Assembly: GCA_021296475.1 (NCBI GenBank)
Contig: JAGWAJ010000010.1
Location: 31,792-89,316, forward strand
From: Acidobacteriota bacterium
GTDB lineage: Bacteria; Acidobacteriota; Vicinamibacteria; Vicinamibacterales; UBA8438
Reading direction: 5' to 3'
DNA: 57,525 bases
Positions 4,054-47,399 of the stretch are shown one piece after another; the first letter of the stretch is position 1, and every line of letters starts with the position of its first letter. Under the pieces are notes generated by a model, which had not been told where the DNA came from, did not search any database, and saw nothing but the letters and a program-made list of their open reading frames with translations. A program made the translations under genes and the position numbers.

Positions 4054-4136
4054 GATCTGCGCCGTAGAACGGGCTGACTCCCAGTAGGCTTGGCTGGGCA
4101 CCAGGCGGAGCCGTCAGGCGACGAATGGTGGGCTAG
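4054..4136 (+). repeat. Dispersed intergenic hairpin element, copy A
   Basis: It begins on the base after the Tsx-like stop codon with GATCTGCGCCGTAGAACGG and continues through the conserved module GGCTTGGCTGGGCACC, GGCGGAGCCGTCAGGCGACG and ATGGTGGGCTAG. It ends 34 bp before the phosphatase start. The left part can form an imperfect hairpin that could end transcription of the porin gene. Other copies are at 6685, 12093, 41882, 42905, 45050 and 47366. Confidence 0.8.
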
Positions 4137-4170
4137 CGGGACGCCTCGCGAGGTTTCGAGGGTCGAAGAC

Positions 4171-6684
4171 ATGGCGAAGTCCCACACCGGCGTGCTGTCC
4201 CGGTCCCTCGAGGCGTGGCGGACCCCGGCGCGCATGCGGCTGGCGGTCCGCGGCTTCCTGGCGCTGGCCGTCCTGCTCGCCGTCACGATCACGGCGACAT
4301 CGGCCACGCTGCTCTACAACGCGGCCACCGCGCTCCGCGACGAGGCGGAGGGGGCGGCCACGCACCTGGCGGAGCTCCTTTCGGCCAGCTTCGCGGAGAT
4401 GGGGGAGATCTCGCTCGCGAACGTCGCCCGCACGCTCGACGCGACGCTCGACGGGCAGATGATCGCCCAGGCGCGCATCGCCGCCCACCTGGTCGCCGCG
4501 GCGGAGGAGGCGGGCTTCGACCCGCCGCGCGTCATCGACGTTCTCGATGACATCATCGCGAACACGGTGCTCGACGAGTTCTGGATCACCAACGAGGCCG
4601 GCTTCTCCTATCTCACCAACGTGCGGGACGAGCAGGGCGATCTCGTCCCGTTCCAGTTCGATCCGGACCCGGCGGTCCAGCCGCAGGCGTCGAAGTTCTA
4701 TGTACTGCTCGCCGCGCCGGTCGGCGGGAACGACTTCATCACGCAGCCGGCGCAGGTGCGTGAGATCGATCAGGAGGTCTACAAGTACGTCGGCGTCAGC
4801 GGCGTCGACAAGCAGCGGATCGTGCAGATCGGCAACGCACTCGTGTTCGGCGAGCAGGAGATCCTGACCAACGTCCACACGTCGCAGCGGGCGGACGTCT
4901 CGGCCGTCATCGAAGGCATCCTGGGCCAGCACATGGCCGTGCAGGCCACCATCGTCGACCGCTTCGCGACCGCCGCCGAGGCGGCCGGCTGGAGCGCGGC
5001 CGATGTCGACCGAAGGCTGGGCCAGATTGTCTCGACGACCGCCATCGGCGAGATCCGCGTCGTCGACCGGGACGGAACGCCCGTCTATTCGAGCCTGTCG
5101 GCATCGGACGCGGCCGGCGAGGAGGTTCCGCACTTCGGCGAGTACGCCGGCCTCTTCGACGGTTCCGAGTCCTTCTTCGAGCACCCGTCCGAGCCGCGCG
5201 CCTCGGACGGAGTCATCTACAAGTACGTGACGGTCGCCAGCCCGGACGGGTCGCGCCTGTCGCAGGTCGGGATACCCATCGAGAGCAGCGCCGGCAACCT
5301 GCTCTACTCCGTGTACCAGCGCGAGGCCGACGTGCTGGTCCGCTCGCGGAACCTCGAGGCGCTGTGGGTCGTCAACCTGGAGGGAGATGTCACCGCCGCG
5401 GCGCCGCGTGCGGAGCTGGCCGCGGGCGCCGCGGGCGCTTTCGGGGGCCGGGTGGAGGCGGTCATGTCCGACGCGCTGGCGCAGGGGCGCGTCGTCAGCG
5501 CCTCGAGCCTGAGCCTCCTGACGCCCGAGGATCGCGGCATCTGGGTCGCGTCGCCCCTGATCAACACGGGTGGGATCCCGATCGGCGGTCTCGCCATATC
5601 GGTGAGCCTGGACGATATCGCGCTCACGGTGCAGGGTGAGGCACTGAACACGACCCTCATCGCGTTTGCGCTGCTCGGCCTCACCGCGTTAGCCGCGGCA
5701 TGGGGCACCCGGTGGCTGACGCATCCGATCGAGGTCATTGCCGACGCGGCTCGGCAGGTCGAGGCGGGCAACCAGCCCGAGGACGACGAGATGGAGGACG
5801 TCCTGCGGCGGCAGGACGAGCTCGGCAGTCTCGCGCGGGTGTTCACGGCGATGACCGTGCAGGTTTTCAACCGCGAGGAGCAGCTCGAGATGCTCGTCTC
5901 CGAGCGGACGCGGGACCTGGAGGAGAGCAACCACAACCTGCGTGTCGCGAAGGAGGCGATGGAGCAGGACCTGGAGATGGCCAAGGTCGTGCAGGCCGCC
6001 CTCGTGCGCGAGGGGACGGTCGAGATGGGCGTCTTCTCCGCGTGCGCGCGGATGACGCCGGCCCAGCGGGTCGGCGGGGACTTCGTCGACGTCATGGAGC
6101 CGGCGCCCGGCCGCCGCTGCCTCGTCGTCGGGGACGTCTCGGGCAAGGGGGTGGCCGCGGCGCTGTTCATGGCCGCCTCGCAGGCGGCGATCAAGGCCGC
6201 GTTCAGCGAGTGCGACGGTATCGACGACGTCACGAGCGCGGCGAACGACCGGGTCTGCCGCCAGAACCCGATGGGGCTGTTCGTCACCGCCGTGCTCGCC
6301 GTCGTCGATCCCGAGAAAGGCGCGGTCGAGTACGTCTGCGCGGGCCACGACCCGGCCTACCTGATCGGATCGGACGACGTGTGCCGGTCTCTGCCGGTGA
6401 CGGGAGGGCTCGCCATGGGCGTGATGGAGGAGTTCCCGTACGCGAGCCGACGACACGTGCTGCAGCCCGGGGAGACGCTCGTCCTGTATACGGACGGATT
6501 GACCGACGCAGTGAACGCAGGCGGGGAGCTGTTCGGCAAGGAGCGCCTGGAGGCCGCGCTGGTCGGTACCGCGCACCGGACGCCTTCGGAGGTCGTGCAC
6601 CATGCGTGGAGCGAGATTGGAGCCTTCTCGGCGGGCATGCCGGCCGCGGACGACATGACCTGCCTCGTGCTGCGCCGCCACTAG
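4171..6684 (+). CDS. Membrane sensor PP2C phosphatase (SpoIIE/RsbU type) with HAMP domain
   Basis: An 837-residue protein. It has a membrane helix at about 24-46, a large extracytoplasmic sensor region (~46-490) that may hold two Cache/PAS-like units, and a second helix at ~492-512. These are followed by HAMP (~512-565), a coiled coil (~565-610) and a SpoIIE-type PP2C domain (~625-837). The metal-binding motifs VGGDFVDV, VVGDVSGKG, YTDGLTDA and ADDMTCLVL are present. It should dephosphorylate a STAS-domain anti-sigma antagonist in response to an external signal. The frame is open back to 4090, but those codons lie in the repeat, so ATG 4171 is chosen. The kinase and STAS genes follow directly. 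Confidence 0.88.
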   Translation: MAKSHTGVLSRSLEAWRTPARMRLAVRGFLALAVLLAVTITATSATLLYNAATALRDEAEGAATHLAELLSASFAEMGEISLANVARTLDATLDGQMIAQARIAAHLVAAAEEAGFDPPRVIDVLDDIIANTVLDEFWITNEAGFSYLTNVRDEQGDLVPFQFDPDPAVQPQASKFYVLLAAPVGGNDFITQPAQVREIDQEVYKYVGVSGVDKQRIVQIGNALVFGEQEILTNVHTSQRADVSAVIEGILGQHMAVQATIVDRFATAAEAAGWSAADVDRRLGQIVSTTAIGEIRVVDRDGTPVYSSLSASDAAGEEVPHFGEYAGLFDGSESFFEHPSEPRASDGVIYKYVTVASPDGSRLSQVGIPIESSAGNLLYSVYQREADVLVRSRNLEALWVVNLEGDVTAAAPRAELAAGAAGAFGGRVEAVMSDALAQGRVVSASSLSLLTPEDRGIWVASPLINTGGIPIGGLAISVSLDDIALTVQGEALNTTLIAFALLGLTALAAAWGTRWLTHPIEVIADAARQVEAGNQPEDDEMEDVLRRQDELGSLARVFTAMTVQVFNREEQLEMLVSERTRDLEESNHNLRVAKEAMEQDLEMAKVVQAALVREGTVEMGVFSACARMTPAQRVGGDFVDVMEPAPGRRCLVVGDVSGKGVAAALFMAASQAAIKAAFSECDGIDDVTSAANDRVCRQNPMGLFVTAVLAVVDPEKGAVEYVCAGHDPAYLIGSDDVCRSLPVTGGLAMGVMEEFPYASRRHVLQPGETLVLYTDGLTDAVNAGGELFGKERLEAALVGTAHRTPSEVVHHAWSEIGAFSAGMPAADDMTCLVLRRH

Positions 6685-6716
6685 AGTCTGCGCCGTAGCA
6701 CGCCGTTTGTGCAGCG
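6685..6716 (+). repeat. Dispersed intergenic hairpin element, partial copy B
   Basis: Directly after the phosphatase stop codon the sequence reads AGTCTGCGCCGTAGCACGCC, the left arm of the hairpin found in the other copies. The right arm has drifted and the GGTTGGTTGGGCACC module is missing, so this is a partial or decayed copy. It lies between two genes of the same operon. Confidence 0.6.
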
Positions 6717-6752
6717 TGTCCCGCGGCTGCTAGGGTACGAGAGAGCCTGACC

Positions 6753-7226
6753 ATGAGCTTCAATGATCTGCGTCTGTCCGTCGCACCCCGGTTGTCGGGC
6801 GTCGGCAACGTGTCCAGGATCGTCGAGGCGTTCGGGGAGGAGAACGGGCTTGCGGAGCCGCAGGTCTACGCCATCAACCTGGCCCTCGACGAACTGATCG
6901 CCAACGCGGTGACCCACGGGTTCGCCGACGTCACCCGTCCGCGCATCGACATCGGCTTGCGGGTCGACGACGACCGCCTGGTCCTCACCCTGACGGACAA
7001 CGGTGCGCCGTTCGACCCGACACGGCACGCGGAAGCCGCCGACACCGAGTCGCCGCTCGAGGAGCGGAGCGCCGACAACCTGGGCCTGCACCTGGTGAAG
7101 TCCGTAGCGGACCGGGTGAGCTACGAGTTCAGCGCCGGCCGGAACCACCTGACGATGGAGCGCGACCTGGCCGGCGTGGCGGCGTGGCGGCGTAGCGGCA
7201 CGGTCGTGGGCCGCGGTGCGAGGTAG
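6753..7226 (+). CDS. RsbW-like anti-sigma factor serine kinase / GHKL ATPase
   Basis: A 157-residue HATPase_c_2 protein. The N box is visible as NLALDELIANAVTHGF, the G1 box as LTDNGAPFDP, and the G2-like segment as NLGLHLVKSVADRVSYEF. RsbW/SpoIIAB kinases bind a sigma factor or another output protein and phosphorylate the STAS antagonist. The gene lies between the SpoIIE-type phosphatase and the STAS gene (5 bp before the latter), giving the classical three-part partner-switching set. No sigma factor gene is adjacent, so the output partner is not visible. The C-terminal ~20 residues are Arg/Gly-rich and not part of the fold. Confidence 0.88.
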   Translation: MSFNDLRLSVAPRLSGVGNVSRIVEAFGEENGLAEPQVYAINLALDELIANAVTHGFADVTRPRIDIGLRVDDDRLVLTLTDNGAPFDPTRHAEAADTESPLEERSADNLGLHLVKSVADRVSYEFSAGRNHLTMERDLAGVAAWRRSGTVVGRGAR

Positions 7227-7231
7227 GGTGC

Positions 7232-7573
7232 ATGGACATTGAAGTCGCCGAGGAGCGGACCGAGGAGACGCTGATCCTGCTTCCGGTCGGACGTCTCGAC
7301 AGCGCGAACGCGCGCTCGTTCGAGGCGCTCGTCATGGAGCACATCGAGGGCGGGCAGCAGAGTCTGGTCATCGACTTCAGCCGGCTCAACTTCATCAGCA
7401 GCTCCGGGATGCGGGTGCTCCTGATCGCGGCCAAGAAGCTGCAGGCGAGCCGCGGCACCCTCGTGCTGTGCGCCATGAAGGACCACATCCACGAGGTCTT
7501 CCGCATCAGCGGCTTCGATCGGATCATCCCGATCAAGGACTCGCGCAAGGCGGCCCTCGGCGTAACGGGCTGA
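7232..7573 (+). CDS. STAS-domain anti-sigma factor antagonist
   Basis: A 113-residue single STAS domain (SpoIIAA/RsbV-like). Visible features are the strand LLPVGRLDSANARSFEALV, the segment SLVIDFSRLNFISSSGMRVL with the conserved Ser-rich phospho-acceptor site (ISSSGMR), and the C-terminal FRISGFDRIIPI. In the family it is phosphorylated by the RsbW-like kinase and reactivated by the SpoIIE-type phosphatase, both encoded just upstream. The gene converges with the ammonium-transporter pseudogene, which starts to lose homology about 90 bp beyond this stop. Confidence 0.9.
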   Translation: MDIEVAEERTEETLILLPVGRLDSANARSFEALVMEHIEGGQQSLVIDFSRLNFISSSGMRVLLIAAKKLQASRGTLVLCAMKDHIHEVFRISGFDRIIPIKDSRKAALGVTG

Positions 7574-8657
7574 CGCGCTCCCGCCGCCGACCGAGCGGGC
7601 CGCCCGCCGAGGATTCGGCGCCGCCGGGCCGCGGCAGCGTGCGGAGCGGCGCGTCATCCCCTGCCGGCGTCGCTCCAGCAGCTTCAGCCCGGCCGTGCAG
7701 ATGACGGCCCCCACGGCGCCGATCACGATGGCCCAGTAGTGGCTCGTGAAGTCCGGTCCCGCTGTGATGGCAACGAGCCCCGCGATGGCGCCGTTCAAAC
7801 CGGCGAGCAGGTCGACGCGCCCCAGAATCGGCCGCGAGACGGCGATGGCCGCGACGACGCCGGCCGCCGCCGCGAGGTTCGTGTTGACCAGCACGTGACT
7901 CATGGCGACCACGTCGGCCGCGCTTCCCAGCGCGAGCTGCGAGCCGCCGTTGAAGCTGAACCACCCGAACCAGAGGATGAAGACGCCGAGCGTCACCACC
8001 GGGACGTTGGACGGCGGCGTCATGAGGGCGGTCCCGTCGGGCCGGAACTTGCCCCTGCGCGGTCCGACGACGAGCGCGCCGGCGAGCGCCGCCCATCCTC
8101 CCGTGCCGTGCACGATGGTCGATCCGGCGAAGTCCTGGAAGCCGAGCGCGTCCAGCCAGCCGCCGCCCACGTCCAGGCGCCGACGACCGGGTAGATGAAG
8201 GCGGTCAGGACCAGCGTGAACACGAAGAAAGACCAGAGCCGGACCCGTTCGGCCAGTGCGCCGGACACGATGGAGGCGGCCGTCGCCACGAACACCATCT
8301 GGAAGAACCAGTCGGACATCACCGCGTAGTTGTTGCCGATCACGGCCGCCCGCGCGCTCTCGTCGCCCGCCACGAGCGCCACCTCGTCGGCGGACGGGCC
8401 GTAGAGGAAGGAGATCGATCCGATCCACCCTCCGACGTCGACGTACATCAGGTTGTAGCCGATGACGTAGTAGGCCAGTCCGGCGATCGCGTACAGGCCG
8501 ATGTTCTTGAGGCAGATGAGGGACGCGTTCTTGGTGCGAACTACCCCGACTCCAGCATGGTGAAGCCGGCGCACATCCACATCACGAGCGCGCCCCAGAC
8601 GAGGAACGACAGGGTGTTGAGAACGAATTGGGACTCCGCGGCCGCGAGGTCATTCAT
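7574..8657 (-). pseudogene. amt: Ammonium transporter (Amt), frameshifted and 3'-truncated
   Basis: Reading leftward from ATG 8657, an Amt N-terminus is clear (WGALVMWMCAGFTMLESG). A TAG at 8541-8543 then stops it. Adding one G to the GGGG run at 8544-8547 restores the normal VRTKNASLICLKNIGLYAIA. A second missing G near 8166-8168 separates YPVVGAWTW from GGWLDALGFQDFAGSTIVHG. The third part continues through PVVTLGVFILWFGWFSFNGG to AVGAVICTAGLKLLE at about 7670. Homology then ends, without the last ~100 residues of a normal Amt (final helices). The loss of the 3' end argues for real decay; the two homopolymer indels alone could be sequencing errors. Confidence 0.85.
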
Positions 8658-8693
8658 TCATGGTCGTCGCCGATCCGATGCGGGCGCATGGCG

Positions 8694-9677
8694 TCAGCGC
8701 GCGGGCGCCCCGTCGACGCGGTATCCGACGTACGCGGCCAACACGAGGTCGTGCAGCGTGCGGCACTTCTGCTGCAGGCGCCGGAGGCGGTCGGCGCGCT
8801 CGTCCAGACTCGGTCGGCCCGACCAGCGTCCGCGCGTCGCCTGGGCCAGATCGTGTGCCGTCTGTCGCGCCTCGGCCGTCGGACCCGGACCGAGCGCGGC
8901 CGCGTTCAGGGCACCGGAGGCCATCTCGACCGCGCGACACAGCGAGCGCGGCAACAGCACGTCGGTGACGAGGAGATCCAGCACCCGGTCCGCGCTGATC
9001 TCGGCTCCGTGGCACCGGGCGTAGGCGTCGAGGGCCTGGCAGATCCGCAGCAGGCCGGGCCAGTCGCCGCCGACAGCGCCCTCCCGCCCTTCCCGCACGA
9101 GCGCGAGCTGGGCCAGGAGGAGCGCGATCATCAACTGCGCCCGCTCCGCGAATCTCCCGAGCTGCAGGAAGCGCCAGCCCTCGTCGCGGTACATCGTCGT
9201 CTGCGCCACGCCCGAGAAGGTGTCGAGGTCGCGGGCCACGGCGACGTAGAAGGCCTCCGGTGCCGTCTTCCAGATGTCGTCGATGGTGCGCGCGCTGAAG
9301 CGGAGCCAGGCCGCGTTCAGGCAGGTCCACATCTCGCTGCTGATGCGGTGCCGGACCTGCCTCGCGTTTTCCCGGGCGCAGGCGAGCCCGTTGCGGATCG
9401 AGTCCGGGTTCGCCGACTCGAAGGTGAGGTCGTCGGCCAGGGTGAACGAGTCCGCGAGCGTGTAATCGTCGTCCTCGCTCGTTGCGAAGGCGAGCTCCGG
9501 TCCCGGCGGCCTCCGGTGCAGCGAATCGTAGATGCGCCGCCAGCCGAAGTTGATCTCTCGCACGGGCCGATCGACCAGCGTCTCGACCTGACAGCTCAGC
9601 AGGCGGCAGAGGTGCTCCGTTCGCTCGAGGTAGCGGCCCATCCAGTAGAGGTCTTCCGCGTTGCGCGAGAGGATCAT
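8694..9677 (-). CDS. Alpha-E domain (DUF403) protein
   Basis: A 327-residue alpha-helical protein starting MILSRNAEDLYWMGRYLERT, the standard opening of the alpha-E family. Further marks are ARENARQVRHRISSEMW, the FLQLGRFAERAQLM segment and the LLPRSLCRAV stretch. Its ATG overlaps the stop of the upstream ATP-grasp gene by 4 bp (ATGA), so the two are translationally coupled. Alpha-E proteins nearly always pair with circularly permuted ATP-grasp ligases and are thought to take part in peptide synthesis or tagging, but the reaction is not established. No transglutaminase-like partner or proteasome-like protease is nearby. Confidence 0.9.
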   Translation of the reverse strand: MILSRNAEDLYWMGRYLERTEHLCRLLSCQVETLVDRPVREINFGWRRIYDSLHRRPPGPELAFATSEDDDYTLADSFTLADDLTFESANPDSIRNGLACARENARQVRHRISSEMWTCLNAAWLRFSARTIDDIWKTAPEAFYVAVARDLDTFSGVAQTTMYRDEGWRFLQLGRFAERAQLMIALLLAQLALVREGREGAVGGDWPGLLRICQALDAYARCHGAEISADRVLDLLVTDVLLPRSLCRAVEMASGALNAAALGPGPTAEARQTAHDLAQATRGRWSGRPSLDERADRLRRLQQKCRTLHDLVLAAYVGYRVDGAPAR

Positions 9678-11107
9678 TCGTCGAGCACCCAGACGTCCTT
9701 GCCGCCGCCGCCCTGGCTCGAGTTGACCACGAGACTCCCTTCGCGGAGCGCCACGCGGCTGAACGCGCCCGGTACCAGCCGGGTCTCGCGGCCGGTGAGC
9801 ACGAAGGGCCTGAGGTCCACCCGCCGCGGCTGGGCGCGGCCGTCGATGACGCACGGCGCGGACGAAAGCTCCAGCACCGGCTGCGAGATGTAGCCGGCCG
9901 GGTTGGCGCGCAGCTCCTTCGCGTACGCCTCCCGTTCCGCCGGCGTGGCGTGGGGGCCGACCAGCATGCCGTAGCCGCCCGAGCCCCCGACCTGCTTCAC
10001 GATCAGGTTCTCGAGGTTGTCGAGCGTGAGCTCCAGATCTTCCGGGCGGCGGCAGATGTGCGTCGGCACGTTCGCCAGCAGCGGGTCCTCGCCCAGGTAG
10101 TAGCGGATCAGGTCCGGAACGTAGGGGTACACGCTCTTGTCGTCCGCCACTCCGGTGCCGGGGGCGTTCACGAGGCTCACCCCGCCCAGGCGGTACGCCT
10201 CCAGGAGGCCCGCCACGCCGAGCAGAGAATCCTCCCGGAACACCAGCGGATCGAGGAAGTCGTCGTCCACGCGCCGGTATATCACGTCGACGCGCCGCAG
10301 CCCCTCCGTCGTCCGCATGTAGACGAGGCCGTTGCGGGTCAGCAGGTCGCGGCCCTCCACCAGCTCGGCCCCGATCTCGTGGGCCAGGAACACGTGCTCG
10401 TAGAACGCGGAGTTGTGGACCCCCGGTGTCAGCAGCGCGATGCGCGGGTCGTGGCAGCCCTCCGGCGCGAGCTCGACGAGCGTTCGCCGCAGCAGACGAC
10501 CGTAGTGCTCTACCTCCCGCACGCGGCAGCGGCGATAGAGTCGGCGCAGGCTCGATTTCACCGCTTTCCGGTTCGCGATCATGTAGGAGACGCCCGACGG
10601 CACCCGGAGGTTGTCCTCGAGCACGAGGAAGCCGTCGTTCGTGCGCACGACATCGCTGCCGCAGATGGCCGCCCACACGCCGTGCGGCGCCGAGAAGCCG
10701 CGCATCTCGGGGCGGTACTGCGGGCAGCCGTGCACGAGGTCCTCCGGCAGGACGCCGTCGGCCAGCACGTGGGCGTCACCGTAGACGTCGGCCAGGAAGC
10801 GGTTCACCGCCCGCACGCGCTGGGTGAGCCCGGTCTCGAGCAGCCGCCACTCGTCGGCCGACACGATCCGCGGCACGCAATCGATCGGGATGATGCGTTC
10901 CTCGGCCTCCTCGCTGCCGTAGACGGTGAAGGTGATTCCCTCGCTCACGAACGAGTGGGTCACGCGCGACTGAATGCTGGCGAGCTCCGCGGTCGAGAGT
11001 CCGCGCAGCGCGTCATGGAGCGCCCGGCTGTGCTCGCGGGGCGTGCCGTCCGGCAGGAACATCTCGTCGTAGACGGCGGCGTCGAGCTCGTAGCTGCCAA
11101 AGTCCAT
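9674..11107 (-). CDS. Circularly permuted type 2 ATP-grasp protein (DUF404/DUF407)
   Basis: A 477-residue protein of the circularly permuted ATP-grasp family. The opening YDEMFLPDGTPREHSRALHD, the core IPIDCVPRIVSADEW, the GFSAPHGVWAAICGSDVVRT stretch, LRVPSGVSYMIANR, LLTPGVHNSAFYEHVFLA and the NLIVKQVGGSGGYGML ATP-binding region are all visible. These enzymes are predicted to ligate an amino group to a carboxylate using ATP; the substrate is unknown. ATG 11107 is preferred over an in-frame TTG at 11149, although neither has a clear ribosome site. It is coupled to the alpha-E gene by a 4-bp overlap. Confidence 0.88.
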   Translation of the reverse strand: MDFGSYELDAAVYDEMFLPDGTPREHSRALHDALRGLSTAELASIQSRVTHSFVSEGITFTVYGSEEAEERIIPIDCVPRIVSADEWRLLETGLTQRVRAVNRFLADVYGDAHVLADGVLPEDLVHGCPQYRPEMRGFSAPHGVWAAICGSDVVRTNDGFLVLEDNLRVPSGVSYMIANRKAVKSSLRRLYRRCRVREVEHYGRLLRRTLVELAPEGCHDPRIALLTPGVHNSAFYEHVFLAHEIGAELVEGRDLLTRNGLVYMRTTEGLRRVDVIYRRVDDDFLDPLVFREDSLLGVAGLLEAYRLGGVSLVNAPGTGVADDKSVYPYVPDLIRYYLGEDPLLANVPTHICRRPEDLELTLDNLENLIVKQVGGSGGYGMLVGPHATPAEREAYAKELRANPAGYISQPVLELSSAPCVIDGRAQPRRVDLRPFVLTGRETRLVPGAFSRVALREGSLVVNSSQGGGGKDVWVLDE

Positions 11108-11230
11108 GTCGATGGACTGAGTTGTATCGCATCGGCGCCGGCGCAGCAACGGGGATCGCGCCGGGCGGGCGCTTCGCGTCAGGCCGACCGCTGGTTGGCG
11201 GCGAGCACGATAGGGGTACGGAGCACGGAC

Positions 11231-11810: not shown

Positions 11811-12110
11811 ATGCCTGCATACTTCATCATGCGCGTCGACGTTCATGACGCCGAGGCCTACGAGAAGAACATCGAGCCCGCCGCGGAGGCGGTGAAGGCC
11901 TGCGGCGGCGAGTTCCTGGCCAGGGGTGGCCGATGCGAACAGGTGACCGGCCAGGGCCGCGGCCGCAACGTCATCGTCCGATTCCCCGACTTCGAAGCGG
12001 CAAAGGTGTGCATCGCGGATCCGAGGGTCCAGGAGGCCCTGCAACGGACGGACGGCGCGTGCTCACGGGACTCGACCATCGTCGAAGGGCTCCAGGAGTC
12101 CGCGTCGTAA
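11811..12110 (+). CDS. DUF1330 family protein
   Basis: A 99-residue protein with the ferredoxin-like dimeric alpha/beta-barrel fold of DUF1330. Visible are AYFIMRVDVHDAEAYEKNIE, FLARGGRCEQVTGQGRGRN and IVRFPDFEAAKVCIADPRVQ. Members bind small molecules or have enzyme-like pockets, with no defined role. The last five codons (Gln-Glu-Ser-Ala-Ser) and the stop lie inside the left arm of the repeat C hairpin, so the C-terminus appears to be supplied by the repeat. The start ATG follows a GAGAGGATACCG leader. Confidence 0.85.
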   Translation: MPAYFIMRVDVHDAEAYEKNIEPAAEAVKACGGEFLARGGRCEQVTGQGRGRNVIVRFPDFEAAKVCIADPRVQEALQRTDGACSRDSTIVEGLQESAS

Positions 12111-12198
12111 GCGGCGCGGACTCCTGGGAGGGTTGGTTGGGCACCCGGCGGAGCCGCCAGGCGACGAATGGTGGGCTAGAAGTCTGCGCCGCAGACTT
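12093..12198 (+). repeat. Dispersed intergenic hairpin element, copy C
   Basis: A perfect 12-bp stem (CAGGAGTCCGCG at 12093-12104, CGCGGACTCCTG at 12115-12126) contains the end and stop codon of the DUF1330 gene. The conserved module follows: GGTTGGTTGGGCACCCGGCG, then GCCAGGCGACGAATGG and GTGGGCTAG. Directly after it, 12180-12198 is a second perfect hairpin, AAGTCTGCG-C-CGCAGACTT, which repeats the family arm. This is the most complete copy in the window. Confidence 0.8.
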
Positions 12199-12202
12199 CC
12201 AT

Positions 12203-12220
12203 CGCGCCCGTGAGGGCGCG
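12203..12220. terminator. Short GC-rich hairpin of the second family
   Basis: CGCGCCC-GTGA-GGGCGCG is a perfect 7-bp stem with a 4-nt loop, just after repeat C. The same stem (CGCGCCC/GGGCGCG) follows the stop codons at 51241 and 54308. There is no T-tract. Confidence 0.5.
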
Positions 12221-12326
12221 CAGGACGGCGGCGACCGCGCACGCCCGGCGCGCCTCGTCGCCCGACCGCGGGCACGGGCCGGCGTCCGGCGGCCCGTGCA
12301 GTGGCGCTGACTGGCGGTCGGCCCAC

Positions 12327-28424: not shown

Positions 28425-29360
28425 TCAGCGCCGGCGGGTGTCGTCGGGGACGGTCGGCGTCCACTCGCGCGCGAGGCGCTGCGCCTCGCCGAGGTCGGAG
28501 CGGCTCATCTGCGACGCCACGCGCACGCGCGTGTTGACGGCGAGGTCGCGCTGGGCGCCCGTCAGCCCCGCCGCCGCGAGGTTCAGCCACATGTACGCGG
28601 TGACGTCGTCCCGGTCCACGCCGCGGCCTTCGGCGTACATCAGGCCGAGGTTGCTCTGCGCGTAGGCGTTGCCCTGCTCGGCCGCCCGCCGGTACCACTC
28701 GACCGCCTCGGCGTCGTCCTGGGGCACACCCTCGCCGTTGGCGTACAGGCTCCCGAGACTGAACTGGGCGTCGGCGTGTCCCTGCTCCGCGGCGCGGCGG
28801 TACCAGGCGAAGGCCTCGGCGTCGTCCTGCGCCACGCCCTCGCCGGAGTCGTACTTGTAGCCGAGGCTGTGCTGCGCGCTGGCGTGCCCCTGCTCGGCCG
28901 CCTGCCGATACCACTCGACCGCCTCGGCGTCGTCCTCGGCCACGCCCTCGCCGGTGGCGTACTTGAATCCGAGGTTGAACTGGGCGTCTGCGTGTCCCTG
29001 CTCGGCCGCCTGCCGGTACCACACGGCGGCCTCGGCGAAGTCCTGGAGGACTCCCTCGCCCGTGTCGTACATGGCGCCGAGGTTGAACTGGGCGTCTGCG
29101 TGTCCCTGCTCGGCCGACCGCCGGTACCACGCGGCGGCCTCGGCGAAGTCCTGCTCGACGCCCTGGCCGGTGTCGTAGCGGTTGCCGAGGTCGAGCTGGG
29201 CCTGGGCGTCTCCCGACTCGGCGGCCGCCTGGACGGCGGCCAGCGTCGTGCGGCGGCGGAAGCGCTGCGCCTCGGCCGGAAGGCTCGACAGGAGGAGGGT
29301 CGCCCCCAGTGCGCTCAGGGCGACGGCAACGGAGAACGGGCGGTTCAGGCAGCGATTCAT
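28425..29360 (-). CDS. Sel1-repeat (TPR-like) secreted protein
   Basis: A 311-residue protein with a signal peptide (~1-31) and about six 36-residue Sel1 repeats of the form A..WYR.AAEQGHA.AQ..LG..Y..GEGV..D.A. The DNA repeats at ~108 bp are also close copies, which suggests recent expansion. A C-terminal variant repeat has YMWLNLAAAGLTGAQRDLA, the usual family end. Sel1 proteins act as periplasmic or membrane adaptors. The amidohydrolase gene follows after 40 bp. Confidence 0.9.
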   Translation of the reverse strand: MNRCLNRPFSVAVALSALGATLLLSSLPAEAQRFRRRTTLAAVQAAAESGDAQAQLDLGNRYDTGQGVEQDFAEAAAWYRRSAEQGHADAQFNLGAMYDTGEGVLQDFAEAAVWYRQAAEQGHADAQFNLGFKYATGEGVAEDDAEAVEWYRQAAEQGHASAQHSLGYKYDSGEGVAQDDAEAFAWYRRAAEQGHADAQFSLGSLYANGEGVPQDDAEAVEWYRRAAEQGNAYAQSNLGLMYAEGRGVDRDDVTAYMWLNLAAAGLTGAQRDLAVNTRVRVASQMSRSDLGEAQRLAREWTPTVPDDTRRR

Positions 29361-34550: not shown

Positions 34551-34553
34551 GCC

Positions 34554-37973: not shown

Positions 37974-37976
37974 GGC

Positions 37977-40358: not shown

Positions 40359-40372
40359 GGCTGAGACTCCCG

Positions 40373-40852: not shown

Positions 40853-40889
40853 GCGTCACCTCCGGTTGGAGTGAGCAAGGAGCGCGGCA

Positions 40890-41783
40890 TTATATCTCCG
40901 CGGGGCGGTTCGTCGCCCGCTCGTAGGCCTCGGCGCGGGCGAGCTTCTCGTCGACCCCGACGATCTGGTTGAACCGCTCGAACGCGATCAGCCGATCCGC
41001 GACGCCGGCCGACGTGCCGTCGGCGAGCAACGAGCCGTACACGGCTTCGAGGGCTCGGGCCGCGGCGTAGAGGCCGGTGAGCGGATACAGCACGAGCTGG
41101 AATCCGAGGGCCGCGAGTTCGTCGCGAGGGCGGAGCGGGGTTCGGCCCTGTTCGATCATGTTGGCCACGGTCGGCTTCGGGGCGCGGCGCCCGATCTCGG
41201 TCAGCTCGTCGAGCGAACGCGGCGCCTCGACGAAGGTGGCGTCCGCGCCTGCCGCCCGGGCCGCCTCCGCGCGCGCCAGGGCTTCCTCGAGGCCGCCGTC
41301 GGCGATGGCGTCGGTCCGGGCGACCAGGAAGAAATCGGCGCCGCCCTTCGCATCGACCGCCGCGCGGATCTTGGCCAGGTACTCGTCGCGCGCGACGACC
41401 GTCTTGTCGCGCATGTGCCCGCACCGCTTGGGCCAGCGCTGGTCCTCCAGGAAGCACCCGGCGGCACCGGCCGCGATGAGCTCGCGGACGGTGCGGACGA
41501 CGTTCAGGGGGTTCCCGTAGCCGGTGTCGGCGTCGACGATGATCGGAATCGCGACGCTGCGGCAGATGGAGCGCGCCCGCTCGATCACCTCCGTCTGCGT
41601 CAGCAGACCGACGTCGGGTTCGCCGAGGCTGGTCGCCGACACGGCGTAGCCCGAAACGAACGCCAGCTCGAAGCCGGCCCGCTCCGCCATCTTCGCCGAC
41701 AGCGCGTCGTAGACCCCGGGGAAGACCAGACTCCCCGCACGATCGAGCACCGACTGCACGCGACCCGCCATGTCGGCCCCCAT
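40890..41783 (-). CDS. Isocitrate lyase / PEP mutase family enzyme
   Basis: A 297-residue (alpha/beta)8 barrel. LVFPGVYDALSAKMAERAGF, the Mg-binding PIIVDADTGYGNPLNVVRTV, CFLEDQRWPKRCGHMRDK with the KRCGH catalytic-loop motif, and ADFFLVARTDAIADGGLEEA are visible. The family includes 2-methylisocitrate lyase, carboxyphosphonoenolpyruvate phosphonomutase and oxaloacetate decarboxylase; the exact reaction cannot be told. ATG 41783 or 41771 are both possible. It lies just upstream of the hydroxylase operon (37 bp before coxS) and may be part of it. Confidence 0.88.
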   Translation of the reverse strand: MGADMAGRVQSVLDRAGSLVFPGVYDALSAKMAERAGFELAFVSGYAVSATSLGEPDVGLLTQTEVIERARSICRSVAIPIIVDADTGYGNPLNVVRTVRELIAAGAAGCFLEDQRWPKRCGHMRDKTVVARDEYLAKIRAAVDAKGGADFFLVARTDAIADGGLEEALARAEAARAAGADATFVEAPRSLDELTEIGRRAPKPTVANMIEQGRTPLRPRDELAALGFQLVLYPLTGLYAAARALEAVYGSLLADGTSAGVADRLIAFERFNQIVGVDEKLARAEAYERATNRPAEI

Positions 41784-41881
41784 TAGACCATGAGACCGCC
41801 TGTCGACGGGGCGGTTCGGACCTGTGCAACGAGGCGCAGCCGGGCCGGGCGGGGGGCGGACATGCGCCCGAGGCGCCCGCG

Positions 41882-41980
41882 CCAGGAGTCTGCGCCGTAG
41901 ATCGGCGACGACTCCCGGAAGGTTGGTTGGAGCTCGTGCGCCGCAGACGGCGGCGGAGCCGTCAGGCGACGAATGGCGGG
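41882..41980 (+). repeat. Dispersed intergenic hairpin element, copy D
   Basis: The hairpin is CCAGGAGTCTGCGCCGTAGA with GACTCCCGG as the right arm, then GGTTGGTTGGAGCTCGTGCG, a short insertion (CCGCAGACGG) and the module GGCGGAGCCGTCAGGCGACG and AATGGCGGG. It fills the gap between the divergent PEP-mutase-like and haloalkane dehalogenase genes and ends 13 bp before the latter's start, so in this copy no gene ends at the hairpin. Confidence 0.8.
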
Positions 41981-41993
41981 ATACGATCGCGCG

Positions 41994-42881
41994 ATGACCG
42001 AACAGGCGATCTCCGCCGCGATGCCCTACGAGTCGCGGTTCGTCACCGTGGCCGGCTCTCGGATCCACTACGTCGAGGCGGGGGAGGGGGATCCGGTCCT
42101 CTTCCTCCACGGCAACCCGACGTCCTGCTACCTCTGGCGCAACGTCCTGCCGCACCTCGCGGGGGAGGCCCGCTGCGTGGCGATGGACCTCATCGGCATG
42201 GGTCGGTCGGACAAGCCGGACCTCGCGTATCGCCTCGTCGATCACGCCCGCTACGTCGACGGCTTCATCGAGGCGCTCGGCCTGCGGCGGCTGACGCTCG
42301 TGCTTCACGACTGGGGCTCCGCGCTCGGCTTCCACTACGCCCGGCGTCATGCCGCCAACGTGCGGGCCCTCGCGTTCCTGGAAGCGATCGTGCGCCCCGT
42401 GACGTGGGACGAGTGGCCGCGCACCGTCCGTCCCCTGTTCGAGAAGTTCCGCACGCCGGAGGTCGGCTGGGAGCTGGTGGTGAACCGGAACGCGTTCGTC
42501 GAGCAGGTGCTGCCGGGCGCGATTCTGCGGACCCTGAGCGACGAGGAGATGGAGCGCTACCGCGAGCCGTTCCGGGAGCCGCAGAGCCGCAAGCCGGTCT
42601 GGCGCTGGCCCAACGAGATCCCGATCGACGGGAGGCCGGCGGACGTGGACGCCCTGGTCGGAGACTACGCGGCGTGGCTCGCCGCATCCGACGTGCCGAA
42701 GCTGCTCCTGTACGCGCGGCCGGGCGCCATCCTGCGCAAGGATCTCGTCGCCTGGTGCCGCGAGCGCCTGCCCAACCTGACCGCCGTCGACGTCGGTCCC
42801 GGGCTGCACTTCGTGCAGGAGGACCAGCCGCACGCGATCGGGGAGGCGCTCCGAAGGTGGTACGGAGGCCTGCCCGGGTAG
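41994..42881 (+). CDS. dhaA: Haloalkane dehalogenase (DhaA-like)
   Basis: A 295-residue alpha/beta hydrolase. Residues line up with the family pentad: Asn41 (HGNPTSCYLW), nucleophile Asp106 and Trp107 (VLHDWGSALGF), Glu130 (FLEAIVRP) and His272 (GLHFVQEDQP). These are the positions of the Rhodococcus DhaA enzyme, so hydrolytic removal of halide from haloalkanes is a strong prediction. ATG 41994 is chosen; an ATG at 41973 lies inside repeat D. A perfect 9-bp hairpin spans its stop codon. Confidence 0.94.
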   Translation: MTEQAISAAMPYESRFVTVAGSRIHYVEAGEGDPVLFLHGNPTSCYLWRNVLPHLAGEARCVAMDLIGMGRSDKPDLAYRLVDHARYVDGFIEALGLRRLTLVLHDWGSALGFHYARRHAANVRALAFLEAIVRPVTWDEWPRTVRPLFEKFRTPEVGWELVVNRNAFVEQVLPGAILRTLSDEEMERYREPFREPQSRKPVWRWPNEIPIDGRPADVDALVGDYAAWLAASDVPKLLLYARPGAILRKDLVAWCRERLPNLTAVDVGPGLHFVQEDQPHAIGEALRRWYGGLPG

Positions 42882-42917
42882 GGGCAGGCCTCGGCGCAGA
42901 CCTGGAAGTCTGCGCCG
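42867..42917 (+). terminator. Two adjacent perfect hairpins at the dehalogenase 3' end
   Basis: GGCCTGCCC (42867-42875) and GGGCAGGCC (42882-42890) pair perfectly around the stop codon. Directly after, CGGCGCAGAC (42892-42901) and GTCTGCGCCG (42908-42917) form a perfect 10-bp stem. The second stem shares its right arm with the left arm of repeat E, so it competes with that hairpin. There is no T-tract. Confidence 0.6.
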
Positions 42918-42990
42918 TAGAACGGTGCAGACTCCCAGCAGGGTCGGTTGGGCGCCAGGCAGAGCCCGCAGGCGATGATTGGCGGGCTAG
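42905..42990 (+). repeat. Dispersed intergenic hairpin element, copy E
   Basis: Hairpin AGTCTGCGCCGT-AGA-ACGGTGCAGACT (one G-T wobble), followed by GGTCGGTTGGGCGCCAGGCA and GAGCCCGCAGGCGATGATTG, ending GCGGGCTAG. It lies between the dehalogenase and the convergent NTF2-like gene, whose open frame reads straight into it. Confidence 0.8.
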
Positions 42991-43008
42991 CGTGGCTAGC
43001 GGGTTGCG

Positions 43009-43488
43009 AACCGGCTGCGGAGCCTCGGCGGCCGGCGTGTTGTGCTGCATCGCGATGCGCCACTCGTCGCCTACCCGGGTGTAGGTCATCGTGTAGCGCC
43101 CCTCGTGCACGGTCTGCCGGCCCTGGCCGTTGTAGTTCACCGACAGCGAGTACTCGCCGTAGGCGATGCCGGTGTCCCCGATGACGCGGTACTGCTCGTT
43201 CTTCGTCTCGAACCGCGCGTCGGTCGTGGTGTTGAAGAAGAGCTGCCAGTCGAGCGCGCACGCCTCGCGTCCCTGCTTGCCGGACGTCGGACCGCAAGAA
43301 TAGAACGACAGCGCCTCGTCGTGCACCGAGTCGAGGAACCCGTCCATGTTGCCCGTGTTGAGGGCGGCTACGGCTTCCTCGAACGTCGCGCGCACGTCCG
43401 CCACCTCGTCGTCGGCGGCCGCGGCGGGGCCGGCCGCCACCATCAGGGTCAGGGTCATCGCGATCGGCAACAGTCTGCTGGTGCGCAT
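43009..43488 (-). CDS. Secreted SnoaL/NTF2-like (DUF4440-type) protein with no stop before the repeat
   Basis: From ATG 43488 (AAGGAG site, 6 nt) the frame gives a signal peptide (LLPIAMTLTLMVAAGPAAAA), then a SnoaL-like domain: VRATFEEAVAALNTGNMDGF, DEALSFYSCGPTSGKQGREA, YGEYSLSVNYNGQGRQTVH and a terminal GDEWRIAMQHNTPAAEAPQP. Homologues end about here, but the frame has no stop and continues through repeat E and antisense to dhaA until 42265. The 3' boundary given is the last family-like residue, not a stop. The native stop was probably lost when the repeat inserted, or through a frameshift. Confidence 0.65.
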
Positions 43489-43688
43489 GGTGTCTCCTTG
43501 GCTCGCGCCGGCGCGTAGGCGTGTCCGGGCGTCCGGGTGTGCCGATTTGTTGCGGTCGCCCTCGCGGGGCAACCGGGTGTCCGCGCGCAGTCTACCAGAG
43601 GGCGTGGCGCCCGCGGACAACCGGGAATTCGCCGGGTGGTTCCTCGGGTCATCCGAATCGGGATCGGGATGGGGTCGGGATCCAGGGT

Positions 43689-45050
43689 TCAGGGTCGGGC
43701 CGGGGCCGGCGGCGCACTCCCGGGAGTCGCCGCGGGGGCGAGCAGAGCCTCCACCGCGTCGAGCCGGCCGTCGAGGAAATCCGGCTGCCTCAGCTTCAGC
43801 AGGTGCGCGATCAACGGATAGACGTGGACGCTCTCGACCGCCGGCAGTCGCGCGCCTCGTGCAATCCCGGGGCCGGCGGCCAGCAGGATGCCGTGCATCT
43901 CCGGAGCCCGCGGGTCCCAGCCGTGCATGCCGGCGGGATAGTCCGCGACGCGCTGGAGCCTCGCCGCGACGCCCTCGATGCCGCGAACGTCGACCATCAC
44001 TCCCACCTCGGGCACGACGATGACGTCGCCGAGCCGCCGGCTGGCGCGGGCGTGGAGGTGGTCCGGCATCTCCTCGCGCAGGTACGCTCGCGCATACCGC
44101 ACGCTCTCGTTGATCGCGTCCCGGATCGGGCCGCGCCGCGCTCGGTCGGCGACGTGCAGGCTGACGGCCGGCCCCGCCGGGACGGCCCGGATGCCGTCGC
44201 CGGCCGCGGCCGGAGGCAACGACTGCCGGCGCTCCGGTTCCACCGCGGCCATCCCGTGGTCGGACACGACGATGACGGCGACGCGATCGCCGTGGGGAAG
44301 CGCGTCGATGCCGTCGAGCAGCTCTCCGAGGAGGGCGTCGGCACGCTGCACGCTGTCGGCCATCTCCGCAGCCGCCGGACCGAGCCGATGCCCGGCGCTG
44401 TCGACGAGCGAGAAGTACAACGTCGTCAGGTGCGGCCGCGTCTCCGGGGGCCGCGCGAGCCAGTCGAGCACCGAGCGCACCCGATTGCGGTTGGGAGCGC
44501 GGCCGTCGTACGGCCTCCACTCGGTCGGCCGGACGCCGCCGATCGCCGCCTCCGTGCCGGGGAAGAACACCGCCGCCGCCACCAATCCCTGGTTCTCCGC
44601 CGTCACCCAGATCGGCTCCCCGCCCCACCAAGACCCGTCCTGCACGGTGTCCCGGTCGCGGTAGTCGAACTCGGCGTCGCGTTCGGAGTCGTAGAAGCGA
44701 TTGGCGACGATTCCGTGGTGCTCGGGGTAGAGGCCGGTCGCGATCGAGTAGTGCGCGGGGAACGTCAGGGACGGGAAGACCGGGATCAGCGCCGCCTGCG
44801 CTCCCGCCCCGGCCAGGCGGTCGAAGGCCGGCGTGGGGTAGCGGTCGAGGTAGTCGGGCCGGAATCCGTCGAACGAAACCAGCACGACGTACGGCCGGCT
44901 GCCGGCGGCCGGGTCGTTGACACCGCCGGTTCCCCGTTGCGCCGAGCGCGACCCGGCGGCCTCCGGCGCCGGCGCAGCGTCGCCGGCGCTGCCGGCGCAT
45001 GCCGCGGCGACGAGCGCGACGAGCGCGACGAGCGCGAGACGCCCCACCAC
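43689..45050 (-). CDS. ENPP-type phosphodiesterase / alkaline phosphatase family lipoprotein
   Basis: A 453-residue enzyme. GTG 45050 starts a lipoprotein signal (LALVALVALVAAAC, Cys18), part of it coded by GCGACGA tandem units. The catalytic domain has VSFDGFRPDYLDRYPTPAFD (first metal Asp), FPSLTFPAHYSIATGLYPEH with the Thr nucleophile, SLVDSAGHRLGP, VVSDHGMAAVEPERR and AGMHGWDPRAPEMHGILLA with the His ligands. It should hydrolyse nucleotide or phosphodiester bonds outside the cytoplasm. Its start is at the end of repeat F. Confidence 0.88.
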   Translation of the reverse strand: MVGRLALVALVALVAAACAGSAGDAAPAPEAAGSRSAQRGTGGVNDPAAGSRPYVVLVSFDGFRPDYLDRYPTPAFDRLAGAGAQAALIPVFPSLTFPAHYSIATGLYPEHHGIVANRFYDSERDAEFDYRDRDTVQDGSWWGGEPIWVTAENQGLVAAAVFFPGTEAAIGGVRPTEWRPYDGRAPNRNRVRSVLDWLARPPETRPHLTTLYFSLVDSAGHRLGPAAAEMADSVQRADALLGELLDGIDALPHGDRVAVIVVSDHGMAAVEPERRQSLPPAAAGDGIRAVPAGPAVSLHVADRARRGPIRDAINESVRYARAYLREEMPDHLHARASRRLGDVIVVPEVGVMVDVRGIEGVAARLQRVADYPAGMHGWDPRAPEMHGILLAAGPGIARGARLPAVESVHVYPLIAHLLKLRQPDFLDGRLDAVEALLAPAATPGSAPPAPARP

Positions 45051-45135
45051 TAGCCCACCATCCGTCGCCTGACGGCTCCGCCTGGTGCCCAACCGACCCT
45101 CCAGGAGTCCGCGCCGTCCTACGGCGCAGACTCCT
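45050..45135 (-). repeat. Dispersed intergenic hairpin element, copy F
   Basis: On the minus strand: GGAGTCTGCGCCGTAGGACG pairing with GCGCGGACTCC, a near-perfect 14-bp stem, then GGTCGGTTGGGCACCAGGCG, GAGCCGTCAGGCGACGGATG and GTGGGCTAG. The last bases overlap the GTG start of the ENPP-type gene; the element lies between tRNA-His and that gene. Confidence 0.85.
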
Positions 45136-45260
45136 CGCCCGTCAACCCGCCGGCGCACGGCGCGCGGAACGGTCCGGAGAGTCCGGCAACCGCGTCACCG
45201 CCGACGCGCCCTCTCGCCGGCCGAGCCCGCGGCCCGTTCGGCCGTCCGAGGCGGTCGGGG

Positions 45261-45337
45261 TGGGGTGAGTGACGGGGATTGAACCCGCGACCTCCGGAGC
45301 CACAGTCCGGCGCTCTACCAATTGAGCTACACTCACC
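45261..45337 (-). tRNA. tRNA-His (anticodon GTG)
   Basis: A minus-strand cloverleaf with acceptor GTGAGTG/CACTCAC and an extra 5' G (position -1) opposite a C discriminator, the hallmark of tRNA-His. The anticodon loop is CTGTGGC (GTG), the T-arm CGGGTTCAATCCC, and CCA is encoded. Confidence 0.96.
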
Positions 45338-45460
45338 GCATCGCATCGGAACCCCCGATCCTAGCACGCCGCTGCATCGGGAGTTCCACCAGCGGGTGCG
45401 AGCGTGGGTCGCATCGCTCCGGCGGCGCGGAGCGGCGCAAGTCGCAGTAAGGAGCTTCCC

Positions 45461-45838
45461 ATTTCTTCACGAGTCTTCGTCGGAAATCTGCAGTACGAAA
45501 CGTCGGCCCAGGAGCTCGAGACGCTCTTCTCCCAGGTCGGTCAGGTCGTCGAGGTGGTCCTGCCCGTCGACCGCATGACGGATCGCCCCCGCGGCTTCGC
45601 CTTCGTGGAGTTCGGCGACGCATCCGCAGTGGCCGAGGCCATCAACCGCTTCGACGGCACGGAGTTCGGCGGCCGCATGCTGCAGGTCAGCGAGGCCCGC
45701 GAGCGGGCGCCGCGGGCGCCGTTCGGCGGCGGTGACTCCGGCGGAGGCGGCGGATGGACGGACGACCGGCCCTCGCGCAAGCCCGCGCGCCCCAAGGGCA
45801 GCCGCCGGGGCGTTCGGGCCCGCAAGCGCGGGTTCTGA
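45461..45838 (+). CDS. RRM-type RNA-binding protein, apparent ATT start
   Basis: A 125-residue protein with one RRM: RNP2 RVFVGNLQ and RNP1 RGFAFVEF, then INRFDGTEFGGRMLQVSEAR. A Gly-rich and strongly basic tail (KPARPKGSRRGVRARKRGF) ends it. In the family the chain starts MSSR or close to it. Here that position is ATT 45461, with AAGGAG exactly 6 nt upstream and no ATG/GTG/TTG in frame except a distant GTG at 45404. An ATT start is rare; in infC it serves feedback control. A one-base error in ATG is the main alternative. Confidence 0.85.
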   Translation: MSSRVFVGNLQYETSAQELETLFSQVGQVVEVVLPVDRMTDRPRGFAFVEFGDASAVAEAINRFDGTEFGGRMLQVSEARERAPRAPFGGGDSGGGGGWTDDRPSRKPARPKGSRRGVRARKRGF

Positions 45839-45921
45839 CCGGTCCGCGCGTCTCGGCTCGGGCGGGCCGGCGATTGGCCGGCCGGTCCGCATCCGCCCCT
45901 GCGACCCGCTAAGATCAGGGC

Positions 45922-47253
45922 ATGGCGTCCGAGGTCAGCGAGCCTGTCGACGCGCCCGATCGGCCCTCGGTCCGGGCCAACGCGGATTCCCTCCAGGTCG
46001 CGCGGGCGATGATCGAGACGCACCGGGTCGCGCGCGAAGCGGGCGAGGCGGGCGACGCACGGTCCGTCCTCGACGGCATCCTCGACGGCATCGCGCCGCT
46101 CGTCGAGCACGACGCGGCCGGCATTCACGTCGTCGGGCGCCGGAGCGGTCTCGTCCGGCACAGCCGCACCCGGGGATGCGCAAGCCCCTCCCCAGATGGC
46201 CACGCGCCGTTCGAGGCGCGCGGCGTCATCGGCGAGGTGCTGGCCTCCGGGAAGACCGTCTCGGTGACCGACGCTGCGGCGTCGGATTGCCGGCCGTGCG
46301 CGCAGTCGCGCCTGGTGGTGCCGGTGATCGGGCCGCGCGATCGGGTCCTCGGCGTGCTCGACGTCCGCTCCGACCGGCCCGGTGGCTACGACGAGCCGGC
46401 GACGGCGCTGCTCGAGGTCTATGCCTCCGCGGTCGCCGCGGCCATCGAGACGGCGCGCCTCCAGGCCGACATGGTCGTCAAGCGGCGCCTCGACAGCGAC
46501 CTGGCGCTGGCCCGCGCCGTGATGGCCGACCTGCTGCCGCACAACGCGCCGTCGCTGGCCGGTTTCGACATCGCCGGGGCGCACCGGGCGTCGCTGGCGG
46601 TCGGCGGCGACTACTACGAGTTCATCCCCCTGGGCGAGGATCGCTGGGGCGTCGTGATCGCCGACGTGGTGGGGAAGGGCCTCCCCGCCGCTCTGCTCGT
46701 CGCCGCGACGCGGGCGTCCATCTGGGCGCTGGTGGGGCACGACCTGGCGGTGCGCACGGTCCTGCGGCGAGCCAACCGCTTCTTCCACGAGTCGGCGGAG
46801 GACGGGCGCTACGTGACGCTCTTCTACATGGTGCTGGACGTTCCGGCCCGCCGGCTCCTCTACGTCAACGCTGGGCACGTGCCGCCGGTGCTGCTCCGTG
46901 CGGACGGGGCCGTCGAGCTCTTCGATGAGGGCGGAGTGCCGCTGGGTCTCTTCGGCGCCCCGCGCTACACCGAGGGGCACGCGGCGCTCGGGGACGGCGA
47001 CGTGATGGCGCTCTACACGGACGGGATCGTCGAGTCGATGGACGCGGACGGGGAGGAGTACGGGCGCGAACGGCTGATCGGCGTCCTGCGCCGGACCCGG
47101 GAGGCGAGCGCCACCGAGATCTGCAACGCCATCGCCCAGGACGTGCGCGGCTTCGACGCCGGCGTCTCGCCCGACGACCGGACGCTGCTGGTCGTCAAGG
47201 CGACCGGCCCGGAGCGCACCCGACTCGGAATCGACCAGGACGCTTCCGCGTAG
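45922..47253 (+). CDS. GAF-PP2C (SpoIIE-type) phosphatase
   Basis: A 443-residue cytosolic protein: GAF domain (~25-185, VLDGIAPLVEHDAAGIHVVG region to GGYDEPATALLEVYASAVAA) and SpoIIE-type PP2C domain (~195-430). The metal motifs VGGDYYEF, VVIADVVGKGLPAAL and YTDGIVESMD are present, and NRFFHESAEDGRYVTLFYMV follows. It should dephosphorylate a STAS protein in a partner-switching pathway, here with a small-ligand GAF input. No kinase or STAS gene is adjacent, so its partner may be elsewhere, for example at 6.7-7.6 kb. Confidence 0.88.
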   Translation: MASEVSEPVDAPDRPSVRANADSLQVARAMIETHRVAREAGEAGDARSVLDGILDGIAPLVEHDAAGIHVVGRRSGLVRHSRTRGCASPSPDGHAPFEARGVIGEVLASGKTVSVTDAAASDCRPCAQSRLVVPVIGPRDRVLGVLDVRSDRPGGYDEPATALLEVYASAVAAAIETARLQADMVVKRRLDSDLALARAVMADLLPHNAPSLAGFDIAGAHRASLAVGGDYYEFIPLGEDRWGVVIADVVGKGLPAALLVAATRASIWALVGHDLAVRTVLRRANRFFHESAEDGRYVTLFYMVLDVPARRLLYVNAGHVPPVLLRADGAVELFDEGGVPLGLFGAPRYTEGHAALGDGDVMALYTDGIVESMDADGEEYGRERLIGVLRRTREASATEICNAIAQDVRGFDAGVSPDDRTLLVVKATGPERTRLGIDQDASA

Positions 47254-47365
47254 GGAGGAATCTCGCCCGGCCGGGGGGACGCCGACGCGGCGCGCCCGCT
47301 GCGCGGGTTGCCGTCGCGTCGGGAGAAGTGCGTCCCAAGGTCACCGGAAATTTCACGGCAACCCT

Positions 47366-47399
47366 GCCAGGAGTCTGCACCGTTCTACGGCGCACACTT
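47366..47399 (-). repeat. Dispersed intergenic hairpin element, partial copy G
   Basis: Directly after the leftward DUF3500 stop codon: AAGTGTGCGCCGT-AGA-ACGGTGCAGACTCC. The stem is close to that of copy E. The following GGGTTGCCG bears little of the second module, so only the hairpin part is kept. It lies between two convergent genes and could end transcription of DUF3500. Confidence 0.65.

Follow-up and report, generated by a model that had tools for sequence, protein, structure and literature searches.

An 89-bp repeat that often lies against stop codons is specific to several genera of one family of Vicinamibacteria. It has the look of a small mobile repeat of a new family, with a relationship to the ends of an IS1182-family transposon. 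We lean towards reading it as a non-autonomous, CTAG-targeting mobile repeat, REP- or MITE-like, which would be spread by an IS1182-type enzyme and kept in the sense direction by an effect at the mRNA level. In a gene-dense genome, such a high-copy repeat outside the RAYT world would find room by landing on stop codons and bringing along a replacement and a back-up stop. The IS1182 link also supplies a candidate mobilizer that can be assayed. A bolder proposal, to which we give rather little credence, is that these are composite mobile repeats with a DDE terminal repeat at one end and a target-like CTAG hairpin at the other, placed one way relative to transcription, each insertion of which would swap a stop for a 3' hairpin cassette with tandem stops.

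The stretch of DNA analysed (57,525 nucleotides, hereafter the window) contains all seven copies, A to G, named in the original prediction. They were found by a sequence scan and a repeat finder, with covariance-model matches for A, C, D, E, F and G. The copies, and a decayed element of a sister family that adjoins one of them, are as follows.

4050-4136, + strand: copy A, full; the CTAG at 4050-4053 includes the TAG stop (4051-4053) of the open reading frame 3205-4053, and the right CTAG is at 4133-4136
6681-6740 (end approximate), + strand: copy B, a decayed left half; the CTAG at 6681-6684 includes the TAG stop of a SpoIIE/RsbU-type phosphatase gene (4171-6684)
12092-12179, + strand: copy C, full, type II (CCAG/CTGG feet); covariance-model match
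12176-12221, + strand: decayed family-3 element (AAGTCTGCGCCGCAGACTT plus GCGCCCGTGAGGGCGCGC), as judged against family-3 copies; it shares the CTAG at the right end of copy C
41882-41984, + strand: copy D, with an altered module and the right end GGGATACG; covariance-model match
42902-42990, + strand: copy E, full; covariance-model match
45050-45137, - strand: copy F, full, with its right-end CTAG at 45050-45053; inverted repeats and covariance-model match
47352-47403, - strand: copy G, a hairpin plus a module cut off inside; the CTAG at 47400-47403 includes the TAG stop of a DUF3500 gene (47400-48620, - strand)

Copies A, B and G had been thought to begin on the base after a stop codon. The unit starts four bases earlier, with the CTAG, and the stop codon is therefore inside the left end of the element, not before it. 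Copy C had been said to enclose a stop, and a TAA does lie inside it, but this is more than enclosure: the stop of the upstream gene for 99 amino acids (11811-12110), which is GTAG in relatives, is gone, and the gene reads in frame into the element and ends at the TAA in the hairpin loop. Congeners G001-G003 are without the element and have a TAG stop there. The minus-strand placement of copies F and G is likewise a correction. Two further features of the window were noted: a TGCTAGGGTA box at 6725-6740, upstream of an RsbW-like gene (conserved in relatives in the form TGCTAGAGTA or TGCTATAGTG), that resembles an extended -10 promoter, and tandem repeats of 108 nt, in four to five copies, at 28587-29210 within a long open reading frame.

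Alignment of 30 copies from the host genome gave a unit of about 89 bp, with CTAG or CCAG at both ends and the full pattern CTAGGAGTCTGCGCCGTAGAACGGTGCAGACTCCTAGCAGGGTTGGTTGGGCACCAGGCGGAGCCGTCAGGCGACGAATGGTGGGCTAG. The unit runs from a CTAG through a 17-bp hairpin, the spacer GGGTTGGTTGGG and a second hairpin with the core GGAGCC..GGCGACG to a closing CTAG. A left hairpin with arms of 10-14 bp, followed by a right module, had been described earlier; both parts are real, but the left stem can reach 17 bp and the right module also contains a hairpin. For the consensus, the two hairpins are predicted both as RNA and as DNA, with z about -6 (-6.7 for the element folded as RNA). Among 44 copies from two genera, 90.3% of the cells in both stems were paired, compared with 33-43% when the partners were slid, and changes on both sides of a stem numbered 71, compared with 32.5 +/- 5.2 in shuffles. 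The outer arms of the right hairpin vary by lineage (CACCAGGCG/CGAATGGTG, CGGCAATCG/CGATTTCCG and CGGTGAGCG/CGCTCTCCG), and the core between them is constant across lineages despite these variable, covarying arms. This covariation in both stems supports selection on structure and bears out the earlier remark that the arms differ yet keep pairing; template-switch repair of quasi-palindromes could be a selection-free source of it, or of part of it.

The feet of the left hairpin are of two types, CTAG/CTAG and CCAG/CTGG (type II), and the 5' and 3' tetranucleotides are complementary and change jointly (CTAG/CTAG, CCAG/CTGG, CCTGG/CCAGG). In type II the two feet are related by inverted complementarity, not by direct repetition, so that the left tetranucleotide acts like the foot of a hairpin rather than like a target duplication. 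All 21 adjacent pairs of the element are head-to-tail, and such neighbours have one CTAG in common, the tetranucleotide not being doubled. Long variants have an extended left hairpin (GCCGCCTCC..GGAGGCGC), and sometimes an extended right one too, as at the copy B site (L183/L184) and at 10285-10396 and 150108-150211 of G007; at L213 1187, about 80 bp flanked by two CTAGs separate the hairpin from the module, as if something had inserted at an inner CTAG. An Rfam search of the window returned only three tRNAs and no family at gathering score for the element.

In the host genome G000, an 85% complete MAG with 3.17 Mb of sequence, there were 88 BLAST matches (the best at 5e-35) and at least 142 covariance-model matches. 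A sequence of 71% GC yields many weak inverted repeats, and chance or ordinary GC-rich palindromes might be invoked on that account, but this explanation is refuted by alignable 89-bp copies, with 88-97% identity to the BLAST query, in more than 40 places in this one genome. Within the family, 13 of the 28 genomes bear the element, in four genera (g1, g2, g5 and g7); none of the 32 genomes sampled from the order's other families does. About 40-73 scored copies occur in nearly every bearing genome. In G007, a near-complete chromosome, the first 1.2 Mb hold about 135 full or partial matches and another 0.4 Mb holds 21 longer copies. Exact modules were found in MAGs named Vicinamibacteria or Acidobacteria, several of the bearing MAGs coming apparently from sponges, as read from isolate names; viral contigs had no match to the module. 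The idea of a mobile, REP/MITE-like repeat in the original prediction is supported by the hundreds of dispersed copies, the tandems that share a CTAG, and the sites filled in one congener and empty in another.

Two regions of G007 (813455-813952 and 1174333-1174811) are tandem arrays of five to six copies, in which private mutations are common to neighbours, pointing to local duplication. The same genus also contains two sister families, which are bounded by CTAG, have two hairpins and begin as the 89-bp element does, with other right modules.

Family 2: copies at L173 1261, L185 6115 and L246 6197
Family 3: copies at L211 18966, L210 3187 and L216 11300, and at 12176-12221 of the window

The arm of the left hairpin is the terminal inverted repeat of an insertion sequence (IS) of 1.58 kb in G007. 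The ends of this IS are GAGTCTGCGCCGCAG(G/A)AA, its flanks are CTAG/CTAG, CTCG/CTCG or CGAG/CGAG (4-bp target duplications), and its transposase has the domains PF05598, PF01609 and PF13751, which we take to place it in the IS1182 family.

L103 6664-8249, G007: IS copy with a frameshifted transposase
L107 854-2439, G007: IS copy with an intact transposase of 441 amino acids
L226-L230, G007: further IS copies

The transposase gave 17 hits in G007, and remnants were found in G001, G013 and G016, so that each bearing genus has one such genome. The IS or remnants with an element-like end are confined to genera g1, g2, g5 and g7 and occur in no non-bearing genome, for which the chance at genus level is 1 in 210. 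A MITE of 109 bp, with both IS ends and an AT-rich middle, is present in 22 unique copies. The first 1.2 Mb of G007 contain about 21 unique copies, and L213 7666 is a copy in the host genome. About 20 first bases are common to this MITE and the 89-bp element, whose left end reads GAGTCTGCGCCG(T/C)AGAAC; both have the CTAG boundary, and they insert mutually at a shared CTAG, 11 of the 22 unique MITEs abutting the right end of the element and one another terminal-repeat end. Unlike the MITE, the element has no right terminal repeat, a second covarying hairpin standing in that place, and it is oriented in sense.

Several points are against the IS1182 reading. A DDE transposase normally needs a terminal repeat at both ends, and the right end of the element, read inwards, is CTAGCCCACCATTCGTCGCC or CTAGCCCGGAAATCGTCGCC, not GAGTCTGCGCCG, with no IS terminal repeat and no match to any known terminal repeat. 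Secondly, an IS1182-type transposase was not found in the host MAG (85% complete), although a multicopy IS is often lost from assemblies. Thirdly, the type II feet do not form a direct repeat. The cleanest empty site, which may be a deletion scar, and the lack of an orientation bias in the MITE also count against it. No autonomous long copy, with halves of the element flanking a gene, was seen in 1.2 Mb of G007. An IS of 1468 bp with CAGCCCGTGG ends, found near CTA sites, was set aside as its ends are unrelated to those of the element, and PF13751 hits in G019 and G020 were without element-like ends. By inspection, no -10 promoter boxes (TGCTAGAGT) lie beside the right ends, and such boxes were rejected as an insertion target.

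A literature search found no named family of such form, the closest published precedent being the GTAG-REPs (PMC3733652). Like the GTAG- and CGTC-tagged REPs, REPINs and RAYTs (PMC3733652, PMC2817692, PMC3116915), the element occurs as hundreds of extragenic palindromic copies, in tandem or in groups, often adjoining stop codons. It may be asked whether a REP/BIME-type repeat was spread by a single-strand Y1 (RAYT/IS200) transposase now lost, with the hairpin feet as guide or cleavage tetranucleotides and with insertion 3' of CTAG giving the shared CTAG. We judge such an origin improbable. The complementary feet that change together, a right end that has no terminal repeat, and the two subterminal hairpins would all suit it, single-strand insertion would fit a one-way orientation, and the ends of GTAG-REPs likewise provide TAG stop codons to flanking open reading frames (PMC3733652), as the terminal tetranucleotide does here. 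On the other hand, the left arm is an IS1182 end, and PF01797 (RAYT/Y1) is absent from the host genome and from 12 of the 13 bearing genomes, the one exception being a truncated hit, and is present in several non-bearing genomes, which is the opposite of what a RAYT/Y1 mobilizer would lead one to expect. A RAYT-type mobilizer, for which the original prediction had proposed to look, is therefore not supported; found in its place was a DDE element of the IS1182 type that has its terminal sequence in common with the repeat. A derivative of the IS200/IS605 type (PATE) would likewise call for a relative of the Y1 transposase, and the same PF01797 results speak against it. Moreover, the element has two unlike hairpins in place of the 20-40 bp palindromes of REPs, has CTAG/CCAG at both hairpin feet and not a GTAG or CGTC tag at one end, is without a RAYT, is common also in divergent gaps, and is strongly one-way in orientation. 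In its habit the element resembles a REP, but it departs from the RAYT-linked and GTAG-tagged repeats, and its likeness to a MITE is confined to one end.

Under the IS1182 reading that we prefer, an IS1182-type transposase would move the 89-bp unit in trans into CTAG sites, and the right hairpin either would substitute for the missing right terminal repeat or would represent a preferred target hairpin. IS1272, of the IS1182 family, uses palindromes as targets and takes the place of stem-loops (PMC5678879). Insertion next to the right hairpin of the element would be in keeping with this, and the hairpin may act as a target-like end. In contrast to IS1272, which makes no target duplications, the G007 IS makes 4-bp ones (CTAG, CTCG, CGAG), and the 89-bp unit has no transposase.

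The CTAG targets are rare in these genomes and would be safest at stop codons. Compared with the trinucleotide expectation, CTAG is 4- to 5-fold rarer in the window (13 versus 59) and in G007 (226 versus 938), and 9 of the 13 in the window fall within the seven elements or at their edges. The commonest context of TAG stops in both is GTAG. In 16 of 17 clear cases of a gene running into the left end, TAG (or CAG) is in frame (P = 2.7e-7). Genes were called with a codon-usage script over 427 kb of host sequence; there, copies were found at most 8 nt from 25 of 131 TAG stops, versus 1 of 201 TGA stops (P = 3e-10), and 13 of 30 CTAG stops carried a copy at most 8 nt away. The reading frame through the left end is TAG GAG TCT GCG CCG TAG. 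A further TAG thus follows in the same frame five codons later, so that copies whose first TAG is mutated to CAG still stop. Hardly any elements lie within genes (1-3 of 59 in one count, 2-4 of 112 in another).

Comparison of sites among relatives favours the view that a TAG or CTAG stop is a pre-existing target. Congeners without the element mostly have TAG already: three of them at site C, as GTAG, two at L202 5905 and one at L202 1156. The repeat family found at one and the same CTAG stop varies from species to species at sites A, G and L204 12583: in congeners the copy A stop has a different family or a remnant, and the copy G stop has a full element in G003, a family-2 element in G001 and two copies in G007. 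More distant genomes with TGA at sites where relatives carry repeats have no element, as at the copy G stop and at the copy A site in genus g2, which is empty. At the copy B site, G001 and G002 have a complete long variant, and the copy F site is empty in G002 and G003. At some sites the stop may have been brought in by the element itself. One empty site has a single CTAG (L202 1156); at another, the cleanest, six nucleotides (CCCCAG) are left over, which may mark a deletion.

After insertion, transcription would turn the element into a 3' hairpin that abuts the stop codon. Between same-direction genes of G007, with arrays merged, it is in sense with the flanking genes in 64 cases and in antisense in 7 (54:5 in one stretch and 10:2 in a separate one), the gene pairs themselves being balanced in strand. 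Unique copies of the 109-bp MITE gave 5:9 and 2:4 in two stretches, 7:13 in total (P = 1.7e-6 for the difference). The sense bias therefore belongs to the module and not to the left end that both have; since a MITE with the same left end is unbiased, IS insertion by itself does not account for it. Replication-strand bias was rejected as a cause, the strands of the element in G007 being independent of position. Such a strong bias fits a role at the RNA level: antisense copies would be lost, or sense copies favoured, through an effect on the mRNA, which might be antisense polarity via the C-rich CCCAACCAACCC strand, or effects on the 3' end or on translation as for REPs near stops. The bias might be due to polarity caused by the C-rich antisense strand, to a 3' hairpin that is of use, or to insertion by a one-way route.

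A functional RNA or DNA element (a 3' stabilizer, a translation-attenuating hairpin or an intercistronic leader) retained by selection, with mobility secondary, is a possibility that we entertain only tentatively. The 64:7 bias that the MITE lacks speaks for it, as does the constant GGAGCC..GGCGACG core amid covarying outer arms. In gaps between convergent genes, too, it is mostly the left end that lies at a stop, in 15 cases as against 3 for the right end, counts that come from related genomes and are partly non-independent; and a passage of PMC12306157 cites a report that REPs at most 15 nt from a stop codon lower translation. However, orthologous positions are not conserved, relatives having other repeats or none, and divergent gaps, which have no through-transcription, are not depleted of the element (18 of 108 in G007).

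The original prediction had also allowed for a terminator or a leader. Like intrinsic terminators, the element places a stable GC hairpin after the stop codon, and so strong a hairpin (z -6.7 when folded as RNA) at the ends of genes would suit a terminator family, but its anatomy makes one very unlikely: no T-run follows either hairpin, the sequences there being CAGGGTTGGTTGGG and GGCTAG. Furthermore, many copies sit in short gaps between genes that run the same way, the median distance from the element to the next gene in the host genome being 70 bp, and divergent gaps carry copies as well. The opposition between 64:7 for the element and 7:13 for a MITE with the same left end makes directly testable the old question of whether such repeats act on the mRNA or are simply tolerated.
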